The notes below the pieces were generated by a model. That model did not search any database. It worked only from the letters and a program-made list of their open reading frames with translations, and was not told the DNA's origin. DNA of 64,000 nucleotides from Chryseobacterium sp. R2A-55. GTDB lineage: Bacteria; Bacteroidota; Bacteroidia; Flavobacteriales; Weeksellaceae. Numbering within the stretch: position 1 is the stretch's first letter; each line of letters opens with the position of its first letter. Shown here one piece after another: positions 55,024 to 57,407 of this stretch. The stretch is taken from contig NZ_JACBFP010000007.1 in assembly GCF_021401085.1 (NCBI RefSeq), forward strand, positions 62,001 to 126,000, in the 5' to 3' direction. Both the position numbers and the translations under genes were made by a program.

Positions 55024-56595
55024 TTATCTTGCGATATTCACCGCTCTGGTTTCACGGATCACTGTGATTCTGACTTGACCCGGATAAGTGAGTTCATTTT
55101 GGATTTTTTCAGAAATATCATAAGAAAGCTGTGCGCTTTGGTCATCGCTAACTTTACCGCTTTCCACCATCACACGGAGTTCACGACCCGCCTGAATTGC
55201 GTATGCACTGGAAACCCCGTCAAAACTCAATGCGGCGGATTCCAAATCTTTTAGTCTTTGGATATAAGATTCCAAAACCTGTCTTCTAGCTCCTGGTCTT
55301 GCTCCGGAAATTCCGTCGGCAACTTGGATGATTGGCGAAAGAAGTGAAGTCATTTCAATCTCGTCATGGTGTGCTCCAATTGCGTTAACAACTTCTGGAT
55401 TTTCACCGAATTTTTCTGCCCACTGCATTCCGAGAAGCGCGTGTGGAAGTTCGGATTCCTGTTCCGGAACTTTTCCGATATCATGGAGTAAACCGGCTCT
55501 TTTCGCCAATTTCACATTGAGTCCCAGTTCTGCAGCCATCGTTGCAGCGATGTTGGCAACTTCTCTGGAGTGCTGCAAAAGGTTTTGTCCATAAGAAGAA
55601 CGGAATTTCATTCTTCCCACGATTTTCACCAGTTCCGGGTGCAGTCCGTGGATTCCCAGATCGATGATGGTTCTTTTACCCACTTCGATGATTTCTTCCT
55701 CGATATGTTTTCTGGTTTTTTCCACCACTTCCTCAATTCTTGCGGGGTGAATTCGTCCGTCGGTTACCAATCGGTGCAGCGATAATCTGGCGATTTCTCT
55801 GCGGACCGGATCGAAGCATGAAAGCAGGATTGCTTCAGGAGTATCATCCACAATGATTTCTACACCGGTTGCAGCTTCCAAAGCACGGATATTTCTACCT
55901 TCTCTACCGATGATTCTTCCTTTCACTTCGTCGGATTCAATATTGAAGACAGAAACCGAGTTTTCGATGGCCTGTTCCGTTCCGATTCTCTGAATGGTTT
56001 GAATGACGATTTTTTTGGCTTCCTGTTTTGCATTGAGATTGGCTTCTTCCATGATGCTTTGAACATGAGCTTGCGCTTTTGTTTTCGCTTCGGCTTTCAT
56101 GGCTTCCACGAGTTCGTTCTTGGCATCCTCTGCGGAATATCCAGAAATTTTCTCCAGGATTTCTACTTTTTGGGCAGTGATGGCATCCAATTCCTGTTGT
56201 TTTCTTTCCAGAATTTCGTGTTTTTTGCCGTAGTCTGCGATTTGTCTTTCCAGATCCTTTTCCAGTTTTCCGGTTTTGCTCAGTTCGTCATTGAGTTTGT
56301 GCTCTTTGTCTTTGAGGCTTTTCTCGGATTCCTGCATTTTCTTTTCTCTCTGCTGAATATCGGCATCATGTTGCGATTTCAGTTCCAGGAATTTTTCTTT
56401 GGCCTGAAGATGTTTTTCCTTCTTCACGGCTTCTGCTTGAACCGTGGCTTTCTCTATAAGATTTTCGGCGTTTTTCTTGGCATCATTAATGATGAATTGT
56501 GCCTTTGAATTCAGCGAGCTTTTGGAAAAAACAAGTCCCAAAACCGCACCGATTCCCAGACAAACCATGCCGATGATAATTGTAATTAAGTCCAT
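55024..56595 (-). CDS. rny: Ribonuclease Y
   Basis: A 523-residue endoribonuclease that starts mRNA decay. The N-terminal helix (about 1-22, [20 protein letters not shown]) anchors it in the membrane. Residues of about 25-200 form a long Lys/Glu-rich coiled coil. A KH RNA-binding domain follows ([20 protein letters not shown], about 225-290), then the HD catalytic domain with [13 protein letters not shown] and [13 protein letters not shown] (metal-binding His-Asp pair) and AIGAHHDE. The length equals family members of about 520. It is downstream of zapA and a structured RNA on the same strand. Confidence 0.96.
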
Positions 56596-56625
56596 ATATA
56601 TCTATGTTTATTTTTGTTTTAGTTC

Positions 56626-56793
56626 AAAAAAAGCCTACAACAATTCCGGATTAGAGTAAACTCCTAATCTACACGATTTGAACTGATTTTCATTTTCTGT
56701 AATCCGAGCAAGTCGGCGCGCCATCAAATGAACTTTCGTCCGGTTATTGTTTAGCGTTGAGTTTACCTTTAATGTGTTAGAACTATTGTAGGC
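56626..56793 (-). ncRNA. Structured RNA between zapA and rny, 6S-like candidate
   Basis: On the minus strand a long rod closes with a 14-bp stem (56793-56780 with 56646-56633, G-U pairs included), ending in T7 (56632-56626) as an intrinsic terminator. Inside is a 13/9-base bubble, then a second perfect 8-bp stem (GTAAACTC 56766-56759 / GAGTTTAC 56663-56656). The apical hairpin CCGACTTGCTCGG (56716-56704) lies further in. This is the shape of 6S RNA, which mimics an open promoter and binds RNA polymerase. The gene sits just after zapA, as ssrS does in Proteobacteria, and a 6S-type RNA is known in Flavobacteria. A possible -7-like TAGATTTT overlaps the zapA stop. No protein of the usual kind fits this stretch. 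Identity as 6S is inferred from shape and place. Confidence 0.65.
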
Positions 56794-56817
56794 AGTTGTT
56801 TCCCGGAAAAGAAAAAT

Positions 56818-57105
56818 CTACTTTTCCAGCGCTTCCAAGATCCGGTTGAGCTGTAGCAACCTTTCATTGGAGGCATTGATATTCTTTTCGTTCGTGATTT
56901 GTGAGACTTCCGCGTTGGTTCCCATTTTCAGGGCGCACATCGCCAAAGCATCCTGTTTGTCTCTCACGTCAAAATTTTGTTCAAAATCTTTAATCATGGC
57001 TTCAATCTGTTTCCCCACTTTTCGCAGTGTTTCTTCTTCTGCAGCGGGCACATTCAGCGGATAATTTCTTCCGGCGATGGTGATGGTAATCCTCCTCACT
57101 TCCAT
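56818..57105 (-). CDS. zapA: Cell division protein ZapA
   Basis: A 95-residue protein that binds FtsZ and bundles its filaments at mid-cell. The N-terminal RRITITIAGRNYPLNVPAAEEETLRKVGKQI is the globular FtsZ-binding head (the YPL and the acidic AEEEE run match the family), and about 40-95 is the coiled coil. It is 1 base overlapping (TAATG) with the upstream coiled-coil gene, a usual pair. Downstream on the same strand come the structured RNA and rny. Confidence 0.93.
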   Translation of the reverse strand: MEVRRITITIAGRNYPLNVPAAEEETLRKVGKQIEAMIKDFEQNFDVRDKQDALAMCALKMGTNAEVSQITNEKNINASNERLLQLNRILEALEK

Positions 57106-57407
57106 TACAATCCGTTGTTTTGAAGTTCTGCAATACAGTTATCCACCTCTTTGATCAACCGGTTGATGTGCGTTTTCATCAATCGGTTGTGGTCTGGATT
57201 CCCGGATATTGCCGAGTAAAGCTTAATATTTTTTTGTTCTTCTGCTAATGCCTGACTTTTTCTTCTTTCCTCATCATACTTTGCCTTCAGCTCTTCGTGT
57301 TCTCGACTTAGTTCCAAATACTTTTCGCTTAAGTTCTGATAATCTTTTCTGAAGTTCAGAACCCTTTTCTCCAAAAGCGAAAAATTATTCTCTAAATCTC
57401 GAAGCAT
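57105..57407 (-). CDS. Coiled-coil protein upstream of zapA, ZapB-like in form
   Basis: A 100-residue protein. Residues of about 1-65 are a highly charged coiled coil (LEKRVLNFRKDYQNLSEKYL, then EELKAKYDEERRKSQ), and the end is DHNRLMKTHINRLIKEVDNCIAEL. The size, coiled coil and fused position with zapA fit the ZapB-like division partner found in Bacteroidota, but the sequence alone does not separate it from other short coiled coils. Stop and zapA start overlap by 1 base. Confidence 0.82.
   Translation of the reverse strand: MLRDLENNFSLLEKRVLNFRKDYQNLSEKYLELSREHEELKAKYDEERRKSQALAEEQKNIKLYSAISGNPDHNRLMKTHINRLIKEVDNCIAELQNNGL

Follow-up and report, generated by a model that had tools for sequence, protein, structure and literature searches.

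pRNAs are a hallmark of 6S RNA function. In Bacteroidota, 6S-Flavo RNA (Rfam RF01685) was listed, and said to perform the function of the known class, in the part of PMC2864571 available to us, and 6S RNA was among the RNAs detected in Flavobacterium psychrophilum according to the accessible text of PMC9723704. For Bacteroides, the excerpted text of PMC7366714 reported a 6S RNA with two pRNA classes seen by dRNA-seq and quoted TAnnTTTG as the promoter consensus. The 6S RNA in that work on B. thetaiotaomicron is suggested to be the same as Bacteroidales-1 RNA (RF01693), as Rfam labels the latter '6S-Bacteroidales RNA suggested' and it occurs in Bacteroides; Rfam shows no clan for RF01685 or RF01693. 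The order ZapB-ZapA-SsrS in beta- and gamma-proteobacteria was described in the portion of PMC7641849 at hand, and, according to the available text of PMC9130861, none of the gene orders around 6S RNA holds across all bacteria. The same text presented Ms1 RNA of Actinobacteria, which was sought via gene order, as a structured, polymerase-binding RNA of roughly 300 nt that carries additional hairpins at its ends, the binding partner being core polymerase.

The RNA described here is located between zapA and rny of Chryseobacterium sp. R2A-55, in an analysed stretch of 64,000 nucleotides referred to as the window. It resembled 6S-Flavo RNA at all 108 positions of the RF01685 model and in the order zapA-RNA-rny, which was the same in the genomes scoring above the cut-off of that model, whereas the model as printed leaves the closing stem and the second stem (P2) unpaired, both of which covaried in RNAs of the window type. 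The rod with a central bubble and zapA upstream were shared with the proteobacterial 6S RNA (SsrS, RF00013), but the downstream gene is ygfA (FAU1) or EVE there and rny here, and RF00013 had no match at this locus. Ms1, compared by its description in the available text, is likewise structured but longer, and acts on core polymerase. The zapA-6S-rny order in Bacteroidota was not found stated in the accessible portions of the literature searched; it may be given by Wehner et al. (2014), who treated the distribution of 6S RNA. Based on the fold, the covariation, the homology to 6S-Flavo and Bacteroidales-1, the gene order and the single significant match in the genome, we consider the element, with a probability of roughly 93%, to be the 6S RNA of this organism, about 160 nt long, acting in trans and predicted from its sequence to regulate RNA polymerase.

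Position and fold of the RNA

The gap between the stop codon of zapA and the start of rny measured 222 bases in the window, and zapA, the RNA and rny were all located on the minus strand, in agreement with the original prediction. The features are listed below.

57105–57407, minus strand: coiled-coil protein of 100 aa, encoded ahead of zapA in the same operon, ZapB-like in place only
56818–57105, minus strand: zapA, upstream neighbour (PF05164, E 3.3e-16)
56626–56793, minus strand: whole predicted 6S RNA of the 6S-Flavo type, about 161 nt plus the T7 tail, ends placed from the fold
56779–56793 (5' arm) with 56633–56647 (3' arm), minus strand: P1 closing stem, 15 bp (fold, covariation)
56770–56773 with 56650–56653, minus strand: extra 4-bp helix (fold)
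56759–56767 (5' arm) with 56655–56663 (3' arm), minus strand: P2 second stem, 9 bp (fold, covariation)
56742–56758, minus strand: 5' side of the central bubble, beginning with AACGCUAAAC, the putative pRNA template side
56738–56741 (5' arm) with 56680–56683 (3' arm), minus strand: P3, 4 bp (fold, covariation)
56689–56732, minus strand: apical arm, with 7 bp (56726–56732 with 56689–56695) and 2 bp (56722–56723 with 56698–56699)
56713–56716 with 56704–56707, minus strand: apical tip, 4 bp (fold)
56664–56679, minus strand: 3' side of the central bubble, containing most of the conserved CAAATCGTGT block (fold)
56626–56632, minus strand: T7 run adjoining the closing stem on its 3' side, a probable terminator of the RNA itself (T-run conservation)
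55024–56595, minus strand: rny, downstream neighbour (TIGR03319, 630.6 bits, cut-off 454.35)

The minimum free energy (MFE) of the RNA strand of 56626–56793 was -48.2 kcal/mol, compared with a mean of -31.01 kcal/mol (sd 3.65) for shuffled sequences (z = -4.71), and none of 200 shuffles folded as well as the native sequence; the plus strand of the same segment gave -40.3 kcal/mol. The fold predicts an RNA of 161–168 nt. The closing stem, for which 14 bp had been claimed, was present and comprised 15 pairs including G-U, while the perfect 8-bp stem GUAAACUC/GAGUUUAC was recovered as described within the 9-pair second helix, and the internal bubble and the T7 (U7) tail were likewise seen in the fold. 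Two weak helices of 2 and 3 bp were drawn by the MFE fold inside the central bubble. The motif CTCAAC, of which CTC belongs to P2 and AAC to the bubble, was invariant across the 68 sequences of alignment A1 described below. The rod, closing stem, large central bubble and apical stem that characterize 6S RNA were all observed in the fold and in the covariation. An alternative 3' hairpin pairing GAUUAG with CUAAUC was considered and rejected; it amounted to -4.0 kcal/mol in the window, and the CTAATC arm was present in few rows of the alignment.

No open reading frame of at least 60 aa with a start codon was listed on the minus strand of 56600–56818. Several stops were present in frames 0 and 2, and some 60 codons of frame 1 were free of them; a coding function of the gap is disfavoured by the covariation. 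The coiled-coil protein preceding zapA scored 15.8 bits (E 0.02) against ZapB (PF06005), below the cut-off of 31.5. Relatives within the family also keep a coiled-coil protein ahead of zapA, at the place occupied by ZapB in Proteobacteria.

Covariance-model matches and gene order in relatives

No Rfam family reached its cut-off anywhere in the 64-kb window. When the region 56300–57100 was searched with permissive filters, RF01685 matched 56658–56762 over 108/108 positions with 48.8 bits (E 1.4e-6), below the gathering score of 85. The scan with 6S covariance models proposed with the original prediction was accordingly positive as to a full-length 6S-Flavo match and negative as to the curated cut-off. 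RF01693 matched 56638–56784 with 34.3 bits (E 6.7e-4), not reaching its cut-off of 60, and the general 6S model RF00013 left the same region unmatched at E<=10 under permissive filters and was nowhere above its cut-off in the window. The match of RF01685 was the only one in the genome of the organism at E<=10; among 14 control genomes, four had a match at E<=10 and none at E<=0.01. Judged from sequence, the window RNA reads as a divergent homologue of RF01685 that strict Rfam rules would exclude.

The same situation was found throughout the GTDB family of the organism. Of the 120 genomes sampled from this family, 119 had an RF01685 match at E<=0.01, none of them above the cut-off, and the sole genome without a match was 81% complete. 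The RNA was single-copy in 118 of the 120 genomes, and one more had a second weak match. This second match, in genome G101 (L082; 34.2 bits, E 0.00317), had neither zapA nor rny nearby, and could be a decayed paralogue or a chance hit. RF01685 also matched 68 of the 148 genomes sampled from the order, and 10 were above the cut-off, all of which belonged to one other family (f3); the cut-off reads as suited to that related family. As 0/120 genomes of the window's family reach it, pipelines using the 6S-Flavo cut-off would omit the 6S RNA of these bacteria, whose family includes species of Chryseobacterium, Kaistella and Riemerella. The missing annotation is a family-wide gap, and the RNA itself is an ordinary one missed by the cut-off of the standard library.

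The gene order was examined in 99 loci (L001 and L010–L107). The family contributed loci from 71 of its 119 matching genomes, with one genome represented twice, and 27 others of the order supplied the rest. The arrangement zapA-RNA-rny on one strand was observed in all 96 loci that had both genes in reach, including 10 of the 10 genomes above the RF01685 cut-off (L040–L049). Of the remaining three loci, L036 (at a contig end) and L102 held one of the two genes and L082 was the weak second match mentioned above. Among the named loci listed, zapA of Chryseobacterium koreense CCUG 49689 came closest (97.9%).

We also built a covariance model, R1, from the 68 family sequences of alignment A1 alone. 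R1 scored the window RNA, itself one row of the model, at 177.2 bits over all 170 positions. At E<=0.01 it matched 83 of the 148 genomes of the order sample, with 18 candidates scored per genome, and 49 of the 295 of the class sample, with 9 scored per genome, so that a miss is not proof of absence. Among 20 of the 65 order genomes without an R1 match that were examined, 14 had rny, and with the filters off the RNA was detected directly before rny in nine of these 14 loci (E<=0.0012). The other five rny loci had no RNA before rny with the filters off; two of them (L182 and L186) were from order family f6 and three (L175, L177 and L178) from 0.6-Mb genomes, and their 6S RNA was possibly lost or moved elsewhere. 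Among 18 class loci examined from outside the order, zapA and rny surrounded the RNA in 12 and not in the other six. In the phylum sample, 20 of 148 genomes matched R1 with 18 candidates per genome scored, and all 20 belonged to the window's class, which points weakly to absence of the RNA outside the class. Near the zapA-6S-rny locus of another class member, a match to Acido-Lenti-1 below its threshold (30.7 of 37 bits) was noticed at L159:626-671 on the minus strand.

Covariation and the relation to Bacteroidales-1

Alignment A1 consisted of the 68 family sequences (64 distinct, after removal of one duplicate gap), and was made without structure, the structure being derived afterwards from the same alignment. 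In A1, 96.6% of cells could pair, and changes on both sides were found in 30 of 40 pairs. The covariation score was 0.417, compared with 0.195 for shuffled alignments, a value that 0/500 shuffles brought up to the observed one, and at most 0.091 when the structure was slid. Alignment A2 contained 57 homologues outside R1, namely 27 from other Flavobacteriales and 30 from the wider class, with loci repeating the same place and L149 (E 1.3e-4) left out. Here 89.0% of cells paired, both sides had changed in 38 of 40 pairs, and the score was 0.630 against 0.232 for shuffles; as A2 was fitted to the structure and its sources were picked by their match, these numbers lean upward. Both-side changes were observed in 11/13 modelled pairs of P1, 3/9 pairs of P2 and 3/4 pairs of P3 in A1, and in 13/13, 7/9 and 4/4 of them, respectively, in A2, whereas the apical region showed them in 9/9 pairs of the arm and 2/3 of the tip in A1. 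The compensatory changes that had been proposed as a check on both stems in relatives were thus abundant in P1 and P2 of the two alignments.

RF01693 was detected in 13 of 198 genomes of the class sample, and five of the loci found there passed its cut-off. R1 matched all 11 of the RF01693 loci given to it (L138–L145 and L148–L150), five of them above the RF01693 cut-off, with E values from 1.1e-11 to 1.3e-4. In addition, a pattern with 27 fixed letters drawn from the apical arm and the 3' side of the bubble (ATGGCG.GCC / GGATTACA.A / CAAATC.TGT) fitted 6S-Flavo-type and Bacteroidales-1 RNAs exactly in many genomes. Scanning of named genomes with this pattern gave at least 119 stretches, all from Bacteroidota among the matches listed, and no match was obtained in viral contigs. 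Among the matches listed, zapA and rny were present in 24 of the 24 stretches from Weeksellaceae. The 95 other listed stretches, 93 from Bacteroidales and two without an assigned order, contained zapA or rny in none (tblastn, E<=1e-3, in stretches of at most 8 kb with the RNA sometimes near the edge); rplT was present in 48 of them, of which 46 had the RNA downstream of this gene and in the same orientation. The Bacteroidales-1 RNA has the same core and stems and was found by R1, but in Bacteroidales it is located after rplT or elsewhere, in contrast to its position between zapA and rny here. As the RNA is kept where its neighbours differ, it is unlikely to act on rny in cis and likely to act in trans. 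A wider model including the closing stems and the terminator would recover the RNA and link the two families listed separately in Rfam. It would also help to study how 6S RNA operates alongside a primary sigma factor that reads different promoter boxes.

Transcript ends, proposed mechanism and alternatives

A T run of at least five within two bases of the end of the stem was found in 95 of 96 loci; the exception was L084, in which the tail reads TTTATTT, while L089, with T6 two bases on, was counted. This common occurrence of the run suggests that the closing stem probably ends the transcript, so that the built-in terminator of the original prediction is a probable one. An exact TAnnTTTG before the RNA was found in 12 of 95 loci only (L061, which had no anchor word, was left out), at scattered positions with none common to more than three loci, which does not support a promoter of this type upstream of the RNA. 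Transcription may begin within zapA, or the RNA may be released from a longer transcript by cleavage. The heptamer GTTCTTT, which resembles an antitermination boxA, was located just after the zapA stop (within 40 bases) and ahead of the 6S RNA in 20 of 27 loci of other families of the order (L040–L066); in the window's family, 4 of 70 loci had it after the zapA stop, which makes 24 of 97 overall. It was absent from the gap in the window and from the examined 16S leader stretch of the same genome, and the idea of a boxA role was dropped for the window.

By homology to 6S RNA, the closing stems and the central bubble would imitate an open promoter. The RNA is predicted to capture the RNA polymerase holoenzyme that carries the housekeeping sigma factor of the ABfr type and to reduce transcription, chiefly in stationary phase. 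Once nucleotides are available again, the 5' side of the bubble would serve the polymerase as template for a short pRNA, and this synthesis would set the enzyme free. The closing stem with T7 would probably serve as the RNA's own terminator, and the RNA would be controlled by growth phase.

Three other explanations were weighed. The structure might be a Bacteroidota RNA homologous to 6S-Flavo and Bacteroidales-1 that does not bind polymerase, the 6S name being a guess. The lack of a match to RF00013 at E<=10 agrees with this, as does the literature search, which in the accessible text of the sources turned up no binding experiment on a Bacteroidota member; but pRNAs were reported for the Bacteroides 6S RNA (available text of PMC7366714), the rod is closed around a large central bubble as in 6S RNA, and the RNA is single-copy in nearly all family genomes (118/120), which makes this explanation very unlikely. 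Also very unlikely, and slightly less credible than the preceding one, is a cis-acting leader or attenuator of rny, in which the stem and T7 would terminate transcription in the zapA-rny gap, with RNase Y exerting feedback on its own message. Such a role, to which the original prediction had turned as its fallback, fits the location of the RNA, which immediately precedes rny in the same orientation in 96/96 loci with both genes in reach, and its terminator-like end in 95/96 loci, but not the homologous RNA of Bacteroidales, which retains the core and stems in stretches where neither gene was found (0/95 listed, at most 8 kb each and the RNA sometimes near the edge) and which follows rplT in 46 of the 95.

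The long stem and T7 could also be nothing but the intergenic terminator of zapA with additional structure by chance. This is the least probable of the three, to the point of being negligible, and is refuted by the covariation, as the rod is conserved and covaries throughout, the apical arm included. The 6S identity claimed in the original prediction was upheld, in our judgement, by the RF01685 homology, the covariation, the gene order and the rod with its central bubble.

A broader proposal is much more tentative, and we regard it as doubtful at present. It holds that 6S-Flavo and Bacteroidales-1 are one Bacteroidia-wide 6S family, that the zapA link outside Bacteroidales, matching zapA-ssrS of Proteobacteria, could reflect an ancient coupling of cell division and polymerase control rather than coincidence, and that the strand complementary to the 5' side of the bubble would contain a copy of the unusual sigma ABfr -7 box (TAnnTTTG), mimicking Bacteroidota promoters. 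On this complement, a TAnnTTTG-like word with at least five of six letters stood at one offset: within the family, 26 of the 44 distinct segments carried it, as did 15 of 19 segments of other Flavobacteriales and 4 of 10 belonging to other class members; the Bacteroidales bubble carried such a word in 20 of 61, with the offset shifted by 3. The mimicry is regarded as a lead only, because the word had been seen before testing and the groups are related. Among 1000 column shuffles of the 5' side, 17 (family), 16 (other Flavobacteriales) and 189 (Bacteroidales) reached the observed mean, and the corresponding numbers for the 3' side were 242, 492 and 666.
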